A DNA stretch of 52,230 nucleotides from Ureaplasma sp. Hg2. GTDB taxonomy: Bacteria; Bacillota_I; Bacilli_A; Mycoplasmatales; Mycoplasmoidaceae. The DNA lies in the NCBI GenBank assembly GCA_021378525.1, contig JAACJW010000005.1, forward strand, positions 1-52,230, read 5' to 3'. The position numbers and the translations under genes were made by a program. This document shows, one piece after another, positions 44,730 to 52,230 of this stretch (within the stretch, counting starts at the first letter, position 1; each line of letters begins with the position of its first letter). The notes beneath the pieces are model-generated. The model was not told where the DNA came from. It ran no database searches and saw only the letters and a list, made by a program, of their open reading frames with translations.

Positions 44730-44739
44730 GTAATTTTAA

Positions 44740-44824
44740 ATAGTGCCACCACACATAAAGGGCATATGCTTAGTGCTGCTCCATTTCTGACCTGACACGA
44801 TTCGCTACTCAATATTGCGATGAC
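44740..44824 (-). ncRNA. ffs: Small signal recognition particle RNA (4.5S-type)
   Basis: The minus strand holds GTCAGGTCAGAAATGGAGCA followed by GCAC, matching the conserved domain IV loop of bacterial SRP RNA (GTCAGGTC...GGAGCAGC). The 5' end GUCAUCGC (complement of 44817-44824) pairs over eight positions, with G-U pairs, with GUGGUGGC (complement of 44745-44752), closing a hairpin of about 85 nt. A minus-strand TATAAT sits 7 bp upstream of that 5' end, and a strong terminator follows. The RNA joins Ffh to bring membrane proteins to the translocon. It lies next to secA, transcribed toward it. Ends are estimated to within a few bases. Confidence 0.9.
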
Positions 44825-44830
44825 ATAATT

Positions 44831-46464: not shown

Positions 46465-47307
46465 ATGAAATTATATGAACATGAAATTATTTTACAAGTA
46501 GTAGCAACCCCGATTGGGAATCTGCAAGAAATTAGTCAACGTGCTAAAGATGCTTTCGTTAAGGCAGAAGTTATCTTATGTGAAGATACGAGAACAACTG
46601 GTAAATTATTAAAATTATTGGAAATCGAACATCATGCTAAATTAATTAGTTATCATAAATTTAATGAAACTAAAAAATTAGATAGTATCATTGAAGTGAT
46701 TAAATCAAAGCAAACAGTTCTAGTAAGTGATGCTGGTTATCCAACGATTAGTGACCCCGGTTATTTACTGATTAAAGCATGTTATGAGAATGAGATTGGC
46801 GTTGAAGTAATCAATGGGCCATCAGCGATGATGCACGCTCTAGTAGCAAGCGGGATTGACACCAAAGCATTTTTATTCATTGGATTTTTAGATCATCTTA
46901 AAACAAAACGAATCAAACAATTAAAGATTTATCAAAATATTACGATGCCCCTTGTGATTTACGAGGCAGTCCACCGAATTAATGATACGCTAGATGACAT
47001 TAAGACCACATATGGAAACCGTTTTGTTGTTGTGGCTCGCGAATTAAGCAAGCAGAATGAAACAATCTATCGTGGCTACTTAGATGATTATGAAGAAATT
47101 ACAGCCAAGGGTGAATTCGTGGTTATTATTGCACCGCAACTTAAGGTTCCAACTGATTTAAAAATTGAAGCAGCTGTTGAAGAGGTCAAAGTCTTGATGG
47201 ACTACAACATGCGTTGTAAGGATGCTTGCAAGTACGTGGGGCATCGTTCAAAGTACGATCCTAAAACACTTTATGAAGTTATTAATAAAATTTCAGATAA
47301 AAAATAA
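46465..47307 (+). CDS. rsmI: 16S rRNA (cytidine1402-2'-O)-methyltransferase RsmI
   Basis: RsmI methylates C1402 of 16S rRNA using S-adenosylmethionine; it is a tetrapyrrole-methylase-fold enzyme. Motifs: VATPIGNLQEISQRA, CEDTRTTGKLL, VSDAGYPTISDPG and NGPSAMMHALVASG. Length is 280 residues. It follows rnmV without a gap, which points to co-translation. The pyrimidine promoter starts 18 bp after its stop, so transcription from rsmI may also run into the leader. Confidence 0.95.
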   Translation: MKLYEHEIILQVVATPIGNLQEISQRAKDAFVKAEVILCEDTRTTGKLLKLLEIEHHAKLISYHKFNETKKLDSIIEVIKSKQTVLVSDAGYPTISDPGYLLIKACYENEIGVEVINGPSAMMHALVASGIDTKAFLFIGFLDHLKTKRIKQLKIYQNITMPLVIYEAVHRINDTLDDIKTTYGNRFVVVARELSKQNETIYRGYLDDYEEITAKGEFVVIIAPQLKVPTDLKIEAAVEEVKVLMDYNMRCKDACKYVGHRSKYDPKTLYEVINKISDKK

Positions 47308-47324: not shown

Positions 47325-47352
47325 TTGATGATAAAATATTTCAATTTATAAT
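47325..47352 (+). promoter_or_regulatory. Promoter of the pyrimidine operon
   Basis: TTGATG at 47325-47330 and TATAAT at 47347-47352 are 16 bp apart. Predicted start near 47359, giving a leader of about 190 nt before pyrB. A 9-bp AT hairpin (47372-47380 with 47387-47395) lies just after it. Confidence 0.65.
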
Positions 47353-47414
47353 AAAGGAGATTGCATTATTGTTATTAATAATGTATTATTAATAAAACAC
47401 AATAGGAGGATATT

Positions 47415-47507
47415 ATGGCACATAAGCAAGCTTGTAACCCTAATTCTTTAAATAAAGTAAGACCGCTTACTTTTATTGGCGTTTTTGATTTTTATTATTT
47501 AGGTTAA
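47415..47507 (+). CDS. Leader peptide of the pyr operon (PyrL-like)
   Basis: A 30-codon frame with a perfect AGGAGG at 47404-47409, 5 nt before ATG. It encodes MAHKQACNPNSLNKV then RPLTFIGVFDFYYLG. The 3' half is U-rich: 23 of 35 bases at 47466-47500 are T. Its TAA at 47505-47507 falls inside the left arm of an intrinsic terminator that ends 19 nt before pyrB. This is the layout of the E. coli pyrBI leader, where a ribosome close behind a UTP-starved, paused polymerase blocks the hairpin. The peptide itself is not similar to E. coli PyrL. An amino-acid attenuator reading Phe/Tyr codons is the alternative. Confidence 0.75.
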   Translation: MAHKQACNPNSLNKVRPLTFIGVFDFYYLG

Positions 47508-47530
47508 ACATTCGTGTTTAACCTTTTTTT
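47501..47530 (+). terminator. Attenuator terminator upstream of pyrB
   Basis: AGGTTAAAC at 47501-47509 pairs with GTTTAACCT at 47516-47524 around a 6-nt loop, followed by T7. It sits between the leader peptide and pyrB, so it must be read through to express the operon. The leader stop codon overlaps its left arm. Confidence 0.93.
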
Positions 47531-47548
47531 ATTGCAAAGGAGATCATT

Positions 47549-48490
47549 ATGAAGCAATTCAATAAAAATATCGTTAGCATTAACGATATGAGCAAGGAAG
47601 ATATCGTTTATCTTTTAGATTTAGCACAACGGCTAGATAAATTAGATAACAAGCATACTTTGTTGACCGATAAGGTAATTAGTAGTTTGTTCTTTGAACC
47701 ATCAACGAGAACACGCTTATCATTTGCATCAGCAGCAAATAAGCTAGGCGCAAGGGTGATAGGTTTTGATAACCCCGATGGAAGCAGTTTAAAAAAAGGT
47801 GAATCCTTAATCGATACTTTAAAAATGGCTGAAGTTTATAGTGATTTAATAGTGATGCGACATAGTGTCGATGGAGCAGCCCGCCTTGGAGCTGAGAATG
47901 TTAGTTGTGCTTTCTTGAATGCCGGCGACGGATCGAACCAACACCCAAGTCAAACATTATTAGATCTATATACCATCAAAGATGAATTAGGAACACTTGA
48001 AAATATTGAAATTGCTTTTGTAGGTGATTTAAAATACGGGCGAACCGTTCATTCACTAACAGCAGCCCTTAAAATGTTTAACGCTAAAATTCATTTTGTA
48101 GCACCACCTAATTTACAAATCCAAGATTCTATTTTAAGAAAATTAGATGAAGCTAAAATTAAATATGAATTAAGCGATAATTTAGAACCAATCATCAACA
48201 AGGTCGATGTCATTTATATGACGAGAATTCAACGTGAAAGATTCGCCGACGGCGATGATTATGAAAAGGTTAAAGGTTGTTATATACTTAACAAAGATTT
48301 GTTAATGAAACAAAAGCCAAAGAAGAATATGATTATTTTACATCCTTTACCAAGGGTCGGAGAGATTAGTACTGATGTCGATGAATTACCATACGCTAAA
48401 TATTTTCAACAAGCAGCTAATGGCGTGCCAGTTAGACAAGCAATGATTATGGCAACATTGAATTTAACGAAACGGATTGGAGACAAATAA
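47549..48490 (+). CDS. pyrB: Aspartate carbamoyltransferase catalytic subunit
   Basis: PyrB joins carbamoyl phosphate and aspartate, the first committed pyrimidine step. Carbamoyl-phosphate site FFEPSTRTRLSF, then KKGESLIDTLKM, HPSQTLLDLYTI, and the aspartate-binding LHPLPRVGEI. Length is 313 residues. Its similarity and the partner pyrI point to the class B, E. coli-like holoenzyme (two catalytic trimers, three regulatory dimers). AAAGGAG precedes the ATG. The stop shares an A with the pyrI start (TAATG). Confidence 0.96.
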   Translation: MKQFNKNIVSINDMSKEDIVYLLDLAQRLDKLDNKHTLLTDKVISSLFFEPSTRTRLSFASAANKLGARVIGFDNPDGSSLKKGESLIDTLKMAEVYSDLIVMRHSVDGAARLGAENVSCAFLNAGDGSNQHPSQTLLDLYTIKDELGTLENIEIAFVGDLKYGRTVHSLTAALKMFNAKIHFVAPPNLQIQDSILRKLDEAKIKYELSDNLEPIINKVDVIYMTRIQRERFADGDDYEKVKGCYILNKDLLMKQKPKKNMIILHPLPRVGEISTDVDELPYAKYFQQAANGVPVRQAMIMATLNLTKRIGDK

Positions 48491-48948
48491 TGAATTTAAA
48501 AGTAACGTCGATTAAAGATGGAGTTGTGATTGACCACATTCCTAATGATGATGTATTTAAGGTTTATAACATCCTTCACTTACAAAAACAAAAACATCCA
48601 TTAACAATGGCCCTAAATTTGCATTCTAAGACAATGCCTCATAAAGGTATGATTAAGATTGAATCAAAACATTTGTCGAAAAACGAACTTATGAAGATAG
48701 CATTAATTGCACCAGGGGTAACAGTTAATCTAATTGCAAATGAAAAAGTTTCTGAAAAACTACATTTAATAATCCCTAAAACTGTTATTAATACACTATT
48801 GTGTAATAACAGTAAATGTATCAGTAATTTCGAACGAGACATCAACACTAATTTTACAATTAGTGTTTATCAAAAATTTCATTATGCCAAATGTTTTTAT
48901 TGTGAAAAAGAGTATCTATTAAAGGAATTATCATTACATGAAAATTAA
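48490..48948 (+). CDS. pyrI: Aspartate carbamoyltransferase regulatory subunit
   Basis: PyrI binds ATP or CTP/UTP and transmits feedback control to PyrB. The N-terminal nucleotide-binding half is followed by a zinc module with CNNSKC and CFYC, the expected CX4C...CX2C. Length is 152 residues, matching the family. It begins on the last base of the pyrB stop. PyrI is known mainly from enterobacteria, archaea and some clostridia or Bacteroidetes and is not usual in mollicutes, so this protein is notable. It gives allosteric control in addition to the leader. Confidence 0.94.
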   Translation: MNLKVTSIKDGVVIDHIPNDDVFKVYNILHLQKQKHPLTMALNLHSKTMPHKGMIKIESKHLSKNELMKIALIAPGVTVNLIANEKVSEKLHLIIPKTVINTLLCNNSKCISNFERDINTNFTISVYQKFHYAKCFYCEKEYLLKELSLHEN

Positions 48949-49711
48949 AATGAATTATGGTGAAGCGTTAGTTATTGAAAATGAAACGATAGCAGATAAT
49001 TATTATTTATTAAAATTACAATTAGATAGTGACCATCAGGTTTTACCCGGCCAGTTCTATATGATTTATAGTAATGATCAAGCAAAATTGTTGGGCAGAC
49101 CGCTAAGTGTATATGATTATCAAGCAAAAAAACGAATTATAAGCTTCTATTTTGAGAAAGTTGGCAGCGGAACAAAGGATATAGCACAATATCGACCAGG
49201 TTCATTAATTAAGTTGCTAGGACCGCTAGGTAATGGGTTTAACGCCCCTACCAACCGTAACATCCTGATGGTTGGTGGCGGCATTGGAATGGCACCATTT
49301 TATTACTATTACCAAAAATACCAACAACAAAACAGCATTATAGCAATGTTTGGTGGAAGAGATAAAAACGCGTTAACTATAAGTAAAAAGTTTAATTTTA
49401 CCACTATGCTATATAGTGACGATGGTAGTGTCGGGACTTCTGGCTTAATAACTCAAGATTTAGCTATGATGATTAAGAACCGAAAAATCGACTTAGTACT
49501 TGGGTGTGGTAACATGGCGATGCTCCAAGCGCTAATGAAAATATGCGACGAATTAGATGTTGATTGCTATATCTCAGCAGAAAACCGCTTTGCTTGTGGA
49601 GTGGGGGCCTGTGATGGGTGCTCAATTAAGGGAAAACACGAAATGCTTCGTGTTTGTAAGGAAGGCCCGATATTTAATATGAAAGATTTGGTAATAACTA
49701 ATGAAAAATAA
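48938..49711 (+). CDS. pyrK: Dihydroorotate dehydrogenase electron transfer subunit
   Basis: PyrK carries FAD and a [2Fe-2S] cluster and moves electrons from dihydroorotate dehydrogenase to NAD+. The FAD-binding RPLSVYD, NAD-binding VGGGIGMAPFYYY and the cluster motif CGVGACDGC with a later Cys (MLRVC) are all visible. Length is 257 residues. It overlaps pyrI by 11 bp and pyrD by 11 bp. Its presence means PyrD is the class 1B, NAD-linked type, suitable for anaerobic life. Confidence 0.94.
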   Translation: MKIKMNYGEALVIENETIADNYYLLKLQLDSDHQVLPGQFYMIYSNDQAKLLGRPLSVYDYQAKKRIISFYFEKVGSGTKDIAQYRPGSLIKLLGPLGNGFNAPTNRNILMVGGGIGMAPFYYYYQKYQQQNSIIAMFGGRDKNALTISKKFNFTTMLYSDDGSVGTSGLITQDLAMMIKNRKIDLVLGCGNMAMLQALMKICDELDVDCYISAENRFACGVGACDGCSIKGKHEMLRVCKEGPIFNMKDLVITNEK

Positions 49712-50666
49712 TTTAACGACGAAGTTTAATAAAATTCCTTTTTCATCGCCCTTACTTAACGCTTCGGGATGCTTTGGTGATTGTTTTGAATATGTTGATA
49801 TTTTTGATCCTAATCACTTGGGTGCGATTATTACTAAGGGAATCACTTTACATGCAAGAAATGGTAATGGCGGCGTTCGTGTTGCTGAAGTAAACAGCGG
49901 AATGATTAACTCAGTTGGTTTAGAAAACGAAGGAATTGATCAATTTATTAATAAGACACTTAAGGAAATGGACGGCAAACTTACTAGTCCACTTATTATT
50001 AATATTAGCGGTAGTAAATTAGAAGATTATGTTGCTTGTGTTAAAAAAGTAGAAGAATGTAAAAAGATTGCAGCAATTGAATTGAATATTTCATGTCCCA
50101 ATGTTAAAGAAGGTGGCATGGCTTTTGGCGCTGATCCCAAGACTGCAGCAACGATAACTGCAGCGATTAGAAAGATAACAACGAAACCACTAATTGTTAA
50201 ATTAACGCCAAATGTTACTGATATAGTAGCGATTGCTTTAGCAGTAGAGCAAGCGGGAGCGGACGCTATTAGTTTGATTAACACAGTATTAGCGATGAAA
50301 ATCGATATTAAGAAACAAGCACCATTATTAGGTAATATTACTGGTGGTTTAAGTGGGCCAGCAATTAAGCCAATCGCGATTAGAATGATTTATCAAACTA
50401 GTCAAAAAATTAGTATTCCTGTTTTTGGAATCGGAGGTTGTCGTAATTATGAGGATGCCTTAGAATTTATGATGGCTGGCGCTTCATTTGTTGAAGTCGG
50501 AACCGCGATGTTTAATAACCCCAATGTAATGTTAGAAATTACATCAGGATTATCACAATATTGTCAAAAGCATAATATTGCTAATGTAAGTGAATTAGTT
50601 GGTTTAGCTCACAATGATAATGGCTTGGCTTACCGTGAAAGGATGAAACAACATGAATCTAAATAA
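49701..50666 (+). CDS. pyrD: Dihydroorotate dehydrogenase, class 1B catalytic subunit
   Basis: PyrD oxidises dihydroorotate to orotate on FMN. Signature parts are LLNASGCFGD, the active-site NISCPNVKEGGMAFG with the class 1 Cys, KLTPNVTDI, and GGLSGPAIKP with FGIGGCRNYEDALEFMMAGA. Length is 321 residues. It overlaps pyrK by 11 bp and pyrF by 14 bp. It pairs with PyrK to use NAD+ as electron acceptor. Confidence 0.95.
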   Translation: MKNNLTTKFNKIPFSSPLLNASGCFGDCFEYVDIFDPNHLGAIITKGITLHARNGNGGVRVAEVNSGMINSVGLENEGIDQFINKTLKEMDGKLTSPLIINISGSKLEDYVACVKKVEECKKIAAIELNISCPNVKEGGMAFGADPKTAATITAAIRKITTKPLIVKLTPNVTDIVAIALAVEQAGADAISLINTVLAMKIDIKKQAPLLGNITGGLSGPAIKPIAIRMIYQTSQKISIPVFGIGGCRNYEDALEFMMAGASFVEVGTAMFNNPNVMLEITSGLSQYCQKHNIANVSELVGLAHNDNGLAYRERMKQHESK

Positions 50667-51357
50667 AGTTATTGTTGCACTAGATTATGATAATGAAATT
50701 AGTGCCCTTCAATTAGTTGATCTTCTAGATAAGAAAATTGAAATTTATAAAGTAGGTTTAGAATTATTTTTAAATACCGGTGGTAAAATTATCGACTCAC
50801 TACAAAAACGTAACAAGAAAATATTTTTAGATTTAAAATTTCATGATATTCCAAATACCGTTTTACAAGCATGTCAATTTGCTTTTAAACAAGATGTAAT
50901 GTTTGTTGACGTGCATATTGCTGGTGGAACTAAGATGATGCAACAAATTGTCGCATTAAGAAATAAATTAAATAGTAAAACTAAAATCATTGGAATCACA
51001 GTTCTAACTAGTTTTGATGAAAAAGGACTTCAAGAAGTTTTTGATAACAAAACAACAATTTTAGAAAATACTGAAAGATTAGCTAAATTAGCTTTTCAAG
51101 CAAAAATGGACGGAGTTGTTTGTTCGGCTTTTGAAGCGACCGACATTAAAAGCAATACAAATGCTAAATTTATTACAATTTGTCCCGGGATTCGCTTAGT
51201 AAACAATCACAACGATGATCAAGTGAGAGTGATGACGCCACTTCAAGCGAGCCAACATCATGCTGATTATCTTGTGATTGGCCGTCCCATCAACAAAGCT
51301 AAAGATCCGCTACTTGTAGTAAAACAAATTGAACAAGAGCTTAACCATGAAAATTAA
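50653..51357 (+). CDS. pyrF: Orotidine-5'-phosphate decarboxylase
   Basis: PyrF decarboxylates OMP to UMP, the last step. The catalytic DLKFHDIPNT motif and the phosphate-binding loop VIGRPINKAKDP are present, with ALDY at the start. Length is 234 residues. It overlaps pyrD by 14 bp and pyrC by 11 bp. The pyrE step between PyrD and PyrF is not seen in this window and may follow pyrC. Confidence 0.95.
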   Translation: MNLNKVIVALDYDNEISALQLVDLLDKKIEIYKVGLELFLNTGGKIIDSLQKRNKKIFLDLKFHDIPNTVLQACQFAFKQDVMFVDVHIAGGTKMMQQIVALRNKLNSKTKIIGITVLTSFDEKGLQEVFDNKTTILENTERLAKLAFQAKMDGVVCSAFEATDIKSNTNAKFITICPGIRLVNNHNDDQVRVMTPLQASQHHADYLVIGRPINKAKDPLLVVKQIEQELNHEN

Positions 51358-52230
51358 ATTAATAAATGGGGTTGATGTTAATTTACTACCAATCAATATT
51401 TTAATTGAAGATACTAAAATAATTGATGTTTCACAAGACTTGATATTAACTAAAACAGATAAAACAATTGATCTTGAAAATCATTTAGTAATGCCGGGTA
51501 TCATCGATTGTCACACTCATATGCGAGACCGTTTATTGAGTTATAAAGAAGATTATACCACCGGTTCAAAAGCTTGTGCCCACGGTGGTATAACCACCTT
51601 CATTGATATGCCTAACACTAAACCATATACAATTACAAATGACGAACTAAAGATAAAAAAGTTTGCAGCCAAAGCCTTATCAATTGTTAATTTCGGTTTT
51701 TATTTTGGTTCAACAGATGAAGCAGAATTAGCTGAAATTAAATTAGCTTCAACCAAAACGCTTGCAACTAAAATTTTTATGAACGATTCGACTGGCAAAA
51801 TGAAAATCACGGATTTAGGTCGCCTTCAAAAAATCATTGATAATTCCCAACGGGTTTTGTTTCATGCTTCCGGCGATGTGATTGATTCAATTTTCAAATG
51901 TAAAATTGATAAAAGTAAATTATTATATTTTTGTCATGTTGCCAACCAGAATGATTTTGATAAAATAAATGATTATAAAAATCAAGGTTACCATATCGTG
52001 ATGGAGGTGACACCACATCATTTATTATTAAATAAAGCAATGATGGATGATCCAATAAACGAGAAGCTACTACAGGTCAAGCCGCCATTAGCCACATCAA
52101 AAGATAACGAATTTTTAATTGCGAAATTAAATGAGGGATTGATTGATACAATCGGAACTGATCATGCCCCGCATTTATTAAAAGAAAAGCAAACAGCAAT
52201 CACTTATGGTTTTCCCGGTGTTGAAACTTC
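51347..52230 (+). CDS. pyrC: Dihydroorotase (partial, runs off the window)
   Basis: PyrC closes carbamoyl aspartate to dihydroorotate. The visible 294 codons hold the metal motif DCHTHMRDR, MPNTKP, the histidines in VLFHAS, CHVAN and EVTPHHLLL, and GTDHAPH, all typical of the amidohydrolase-fold dihydroorotase. The frame is still open at the window edge. It overlaps pyrF by 11 bp. AAGAGC lies before the ATG. Confidence 0.93.
   Translation, partial: MKIKLINGVDVNLLPINILIEDTKIIDVSQDLILTKTDKTIDLENHLVMPGIIDCHTHMRDRLLSYKEDYTTGSKACAHGGITTFIDMPNTKPYTITNDELKIKKFAAKALSIVNFGFYFGSTDEAELAEIKLASTKTLATKIFMNDSTGKMKITDLGRLQKIIDNSQRVLFHASGDVIDSIFKCKIDKSKLLYFCHVANQNDFDKINDYKNQGYHIVMEVTPHHLLLNKAMMDDPINEKLLQVKPPLATSKDNEFLIAKLNEGLIDTIGTDHAPHLLKEKQTAITYGFPGVET

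Follow-up and report, generated by a model that had tools for sequence, protein, structure and literature searches.

The best studied attenuator of the pyrBI type is that of Escherichia coli. Translation of its leader suppresses the terminator when low UTP slows the polymerase (Roland et al. 1988, cited in PMC4824070 and PMC5021804). The E. coli pyrE attenuator (rph-pyrE) follows the same UTP logic with a U-rich tract, with translation ending at the attenuator, either ahead of its hairpin or within it. Bacilli usually control their pyr genes by PyrR attenuation; mollicutes, whose ancestors use PyrR, are regarded as poor in regulation.

The window, i.e. the whole stretch of DNA that was analysed (contig G000:C42, 52,230 nucleotides), belongs to a mollicute genome and was read with genetic code 4, since SecA and other proteins require TGA to be read as tryptophan. 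The region upstream of its pyrB probably attenuates transcription of the pyr operon in a translation-coupled way, as in E. coli pyrBI; no transcript, ribosome or reporter data exist for it. Both loci precede a pyrB operon, have a leader frame with a good Shine-Dalgarno sequence that starts about 135 bases upstream, carry a pyrimidine-rich tract just before the hairpin and place the terminator within translated reach. With the same detector the E. coli leader starts at -138 with the hairpin at -50 to -30, and the window leader starts at -134 with the hairpin at -48 to -25, the hairpin thus ending 25 bases (window) versus 30 bases (E. coli) before pyrB. The window leader stops in the left arm, whereas that of E. 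coli runs to 3 bases before pyrB; the window stem is A/U-rich and weaker (-9.9 versus -15.4 kcal/mol), and the leader peptides are unrelated. In where translation ends the window leader resembles the pyrE attenuator, which differs in that its translated frame is the full gene rph and not a leader of 30 codons. With PyrR attenuation in Bacilli (RF00515) the locus shares a terminator in a pyr operon leader of Firmicutes-derived bacteria, but neither pyrR nor the PyrR RNA element was found. With the trp and his leader-peptide attenuators it shares a small translated frame and a terminator, but it has no single regulatory codon run or strong antiterminator, and the operon makes pyrimidines.

Leader architecture upstream of pyrB

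Features are collected in Table 1, where sister genome denotes the only other genome of the genus. The layout is shown at base level: the leader stop codon (TAA, 47505-47507) sits within the left arm of the terminator, the stem of which (47501-47510 paired with 47515-47524) consists of an A-U pair plus 9 bp and closes a UUCG loop at -9.9 kcal/mol, and the T7 run occupies 47524-47530. Only 18 bases separate this run from the pyrB ATG at 47549, so that no promoter fits between them and pyr transcripts have to cross the terminator. With its stop within the left arm and its frame kept in the sister genome, the leader would bring a ribosome onto the hairpin, as an attenuator of the pyrBI type requires.

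Table 1. Coordinates of the leader, promoter candidates and pyr genes in the window
Feature	Position	Strand	Evidence
Promoter candidate of the earlier note, farther upstream, TTGATG-16-TATAAT	47325-47352	+	in sequence; -35 not conserved in sister genome
Conserved sigma-70-type promoter candidate, TTGCAT-17-TATTAT	47361-47389	+	aligned in both genus genomes as TTGCRT-17-TATTAT; start site not mapped
Shine-Dalgarno sequence of the leader frame, AGGAGG	47404-47409	+	sequence; sister genome has AGGAG at the same place
Leader frame, 30 codons, ATG at 47415, peptide MAHKQACNPNSLNKVRPLTFIGVFDFYYLG	47415-47507	+	sequence; equal length in sister genome, no indel
U-rich tract, 23 T in 35 bases, proposed UTP-dependent slow zone	47471-47505	+	sequence count; conservation in sister genome
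Intrinsic terminator (putative attenuator), 10-bp stem, UUCG loop, T7	47501-47530	+	sequence, folding, shuffles; stem and loop identical in sister genome, with T8
pyrB, aspartate carbamoyltransferase catalytic chain	47549-48490	+	TIGR00670, 359.6 bits (cut-off 236.95)
pyrI, aspartate carbamoyltransferase regulatory chain	48490-48948	+	TIGR00240, 138.6 bits, just below cut-off (148.55)
pyrK, pyrD, pyrF and pyrC, remainder of the operon, pyrC cut by the contig end	48938-52230	+	gene assignment

An earlier note, made from the sequence alone, had described a promoter, an AGGAGG-led frame of 30 codons, a U-rich tract with 23 T in 35 bases, a stop codon in the left arm of a 9-bp terminator with T7, and then pyrB. 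Frame, tract, stop position, T-run and gene order held at base level; the stem is given here as 10 bp (the A-U pair plus the 9 bp). The promoter held in part, as it exists in the sequence but its -35 cannot be clearly matched in the sister genome; the candidate that is conserved by alignment is the second one in Table 1, which directly precedes the leader frame. Two adjoining palindromes (TTATTAATAA, 47372-47395) overlap this promoter, and the sister genome retains only the second of them; an operator formed by the palindromes at this position (TTATTAATAAT) was rejected, as only one copy is kept there.

A very unlikely alternative is that the hairpin is an ordinary rsmI terminator, or a leaky one, and that the small frame is unrelated or due to chance. 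In its favour, rsmI ends at 47307 without a close terminator of its own. Against it, the 18 bases leave no promoter room, so that pyr transcripts pass the terminator, the interval from rsmI to the leader holds two promoter candidates, and frame, Shine-Dalgarno sequence and terminator are conserved.

The downstream genes follow in the order pyrB, pyrI, pyrK, pyrD, pyrF and pyrC (within 47549-52228), and the sister operon goes on into an orotate phosphoribosyltransferase-like frame (pyrE by sequence reading). PyrI is rare in mollicutes: within the order 5 of 320 genomes gave a match, none above the model cut-off and one very weak. Elsewhere in the window a small bacterial SRP RNA was identified (44738-44828, minus strand; Rfam RF00169).

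Conservation in the genus and chance expectation

Comparison within the genus rests on two genomes only, both MAG-like (79 and 85% complete). The sister genome (G001), which we take to be Ureaplasma sp. Hg1 (JAACJV010000006.1; leader sequence identical), encodes a PyrB 88% identical to that of the window and the leader MVCKQTYNPSTLDKVRVVNFVGVFDFYYLG, which differs at 11 of 30 residues with equal frame length. From 47481 to 47524, comprising tract and terminator, 44/44 bases are identical, versus 47/66 for the frame's head (Fisher P = 2e-5). Over leader codons 1-22, 19 of 66 bases are changed, with dN 0.31 and dS 0.62 versus dN 0.07 and dS 2.01 for pyrB. The last 8 codons are invariant in both protein and DNA; for the tail of the leader, the lack of codon changes departs only modestly from expectation (P about 0.04). 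These two genomes thus keep the length of the frame, the U tract, the stop-in-stem arrangement and the hairpin, and the first two thirds of the peptide only loosely. The small frame, U tract, stop position and terminator, which the earlier note had proposed to compare in relatives, are all conserved in the only genome of the same genus. When the leader DNA was compared with 320 genomes of the order, real matches came only from the window and the sister genome, all others being low-complexity noise, and two family members with pyrBI (G008 and G021) have no such leader upstream of pyrB.

Chance expectation was estimated for each element. A T content of 23 in 35 is reached by only 0.04% of plus-strand and 0.14% of minus-strand 35-mers of the window; an equally good terminator arose in 12 of 2000 dinucleotide shuffles of 47401-47540; and the leader frame stays open in 12% of shuffles of its own interior. 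The architecture (frame, terminator and downstream gene) was searched for on both strands of 482 kb, made up of the window, the sister contig and further contigs of the window genome, to which 200 kb from a spiroplasma-type genome and 20 kb from a family member were added. Three matches were obtained, all of them pyrB leaders (window, sister genome and one spiroplasma-type genome).

PyrR and leaders of the same kind in other lineages

The earlier note had held that a pyrR gene with a PyrR-binding loop in the leader would refute its reading; both were searched for and neither was found. In the window genome the best match to the PyrR models (33.7 bits, cut-off 138) lies at 27.5-27.9 kb of the window and was rejected as it is Hpt, and no PyrR above cut-off was present in the sister genome. 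No Rfam match to the PyrR RNA element was obtained in the leader even at E up to 1, and the element was not found in either genome of the genus as assembled. As a positive control, the same Rfam search does detect it in two genomes of the order (G235 and G236) that carry PyrR. The absence is shown for the two assemblies and remains provisional for the gene, because both genomes are incomplete.

That Gram-positive relatives usually use PyrR, as had also been stated, held only in part: within the order PyrR exceeds the cut-off in 7 of 320 genomes, versus 43 of 320 in which the PyrB model matched at E <= 1e-60 (41 above cut-off). None of the seven PyrR-bearing genomes is among the eight with the leader device described below, a separation that may be due to chance as the numbers are small. 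In Bacilli outside the order, terminators upstream of pyrB are common (28 pyrB loci). In one such locus (L128, Bacilli genome G367) the pyrB leader has a 20-codon frame with a Shine-Dalgarno sequence and 22 T in the 45 bases before the terminator, together with a PyrR element.

Antitermination controlled by a protein or an RNA structure (PyrR-like or a riboswitch) is very unlikely. It is favoured by the usual role of PyrR in Bacilli and by its presence in the 7 genomes of the order. Against it, PyrR was found in neither genome of the genus, no Rfam match was seen at the above E-value, pairing of left arm and U tract is weak and local, and upstream structures differ between the two genomes. An antiterminator was likewise rejected, the left arm pairing only weakly with the U tract and no strong conserved competitor being present.

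The regions upstream of pyrB were read in all 43 PyrB-matching genomes of the order. A leader frame ending in a terminator was found in both genomes of the window genus, in five genomes of g44 (G191, G193, G195, G200 and G201) and in G234; in these eight genomes 21-27 of the 45 bases preceding the terminator are T. The g44 genomes are called spiroplasma-type by inference because they carry spiralin repeats. All 5 spiroplasma-type genomes that bear pyrB have a leader of 42-53 codons running into the terminator (T 23-27 of 45); the sequences of these leaders have diverged, AAGGTGA precedes the ATG, and the promoter resembles TTTACA/TTGACA...TATTAT. The device is not unique; the earlier note had known of no similar one in Mollicutes. 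Covariation of the stem in the spiroplasma-type set is weak (one double change, matched by 109 of 500 shuffles) and was dropped as proof, there being too few changes.

The next best match to the window PyrB (58%) lies in a Spirochaetes MAG (L010; 25% G+C) and pointed to a spirochaete genus inferred to be Brachyspira-like. In that genus a strong terminator and a leader that is open into the hairpin were present within about 200 bases upstream in 24 of 24 pyrB loci (L156-L179), with leaders of 31-64 codons and 20-27 T in 45 bases. After shuffling, a leader would be expected to stay open at a mean frequency of 0.10; the odds were not multiplied out, since the genomes are related and do not count as independent. 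Leaders occur in all three registers with respect to the right arm of the hairpin, with compensating indels (L169 versus L170, minus 4 and plus 1), and as frames stay open in all registers, arrival of the ribosome is conserved and not the peptide. Since PyrR is present in 22 of 26 genomes of this genus, the device does not need the absence of PyrR. The spirochaete PyrB at L010:2944-4068 ends in a short zinc-binding segment that resembles PyrI (CTNSKCITNFE...CYYC), which by sequence reading makes it a partial PyrB-PyrI fusion.

These data bear on two further alternatives. In the first, a nascent peptide of the TnaC kind ending in GVFDFYYLG would respond to a metabolite by stalling the ribosome on the stop codon, which would keep the terminator open. 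This would suit the invariance of the last 8 codons in two genomes and the common LF(S/Y)PxxF(K/I)TYL near the hairpin of spiroplasma-type leaders. It is nevertheless very unlikely, as no motif is common between lineages, the spirochaete species differ in frame and therefore in the peptide encoded near the hairpin, and the invariant stretches coincide with the U tract and the hairpin arm. In the second, less improbable but still unlikely, the attenuator is coupled to translation without sensing UTP, so that the operon would track general translation or initiation efficiency and the U-rich codons would reflect an AT-rich genome. Layout and conservation fit this equally well and the genome is AT-rich, but the tract is in the extreme plus-strand fraction of the window given above, T makes up 20-27 of 45 bases in every lineage with the device, and only pyrB leaders were recovered from the 482 kb.

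The PyrB tree groups the window genus with the spirochaete PyrBs as their sister (support 0.93), on a branch shared with E. coli, and places the spiroplasma-type PyrBs on a distant branch (pairwise identity 35-40%); from these placements, two separate PyrB lineages carry the device. The simplest readings, both inferred, are a pyrB transfer between spirochaetes and the window genus and an independent origin in the spiroplasma-type genomes. The PyrB of G234 (L084, genus g49) nests inside those of g44, the other g49 genomes having PyrR and a different PyrB; the nesting suggests a transfer of pyrB together with its leader. Recurrence before pyrB elsewhere is shown, and because the arrangement is found in the sister genome, in spiroplasma-type genomes and in a spirochaete genus, the device gives the impression of a regulatory solution that has recurred, not of a pattern due to chance.

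Proposed mechanism and its meaning

In the pyrBI-type reading, which is supported by the computational checks, transcription would start before the 30-codon leader and would have to traverse the terminator to reach pyrB. With ample UTP the polymerase would move fast through the U-rich tract, the ribosome would be left behind, and the hairpin would form and stop transcription. With low UTP the polymerase would be slow in the U tract, and the leading ribosome would catch up and reach the stop codon in the left arm; there it would block the hairpin, and pyrBIKDFC would be transcribed. A ribosome that holds the stop codon in its A site would span the left arm together with the loop. Translation of the leader, termination and masking by the ribosome are inferred, as is the response to UTP, which is likely to be the signal but remains unproven.

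Such a mechanism depends on the ribosome keeping close to the polymerase. In Mycoplasma pneumoniae, imaging has shown RNA polymerase and ribosome in coupled complexes (O'Reilly et al. 2020, reviewed in PMC7858274). A short distance from stop codon to terminator has been taken to indicate that transcription is uncoupled (PMC7858274, after Johnson et al. 2020). Of 43 gene-end terminators sampled from the window genome, 16 begin <=12 bases past the stop codon, which by that measure would count against coupling there.

The mechanism is already known in kind; as far as the literature searched shows, what is new lies in the host groups, in the layout with the stop codon in the stem and in the use of several registers by the leaders. 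No description of such a leader in Spiroplasma, Mycoplasma or Brachyspira was found in that literature, subscription journals being mostly uncovered.

A bolder reading, which could as readily prove wrong as right, is that UTP sensing by leader translation before pyrB is recurrent on two distant PyrB branches (the window genus plus the spirochaete genus, and the spiroplasma-type genomes), replaces PyrR in some mollicutes, keeps only the arrival of the ribosome at the hairpin, and shows tight coupling in wall-less Firmicutes-derived bacteria, unlike Bacillus subtilis. The spirochaete leaders in three registers make it directly testable that the position of the ribosome matters and the peptide does not. 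Coupling has been imaged in M. pneumoniae and is largely absent in B. subtilis; a pyr switch operated by the ribosome in a mollicute would be a natural, built-in reporter of transcription-translation coupling.
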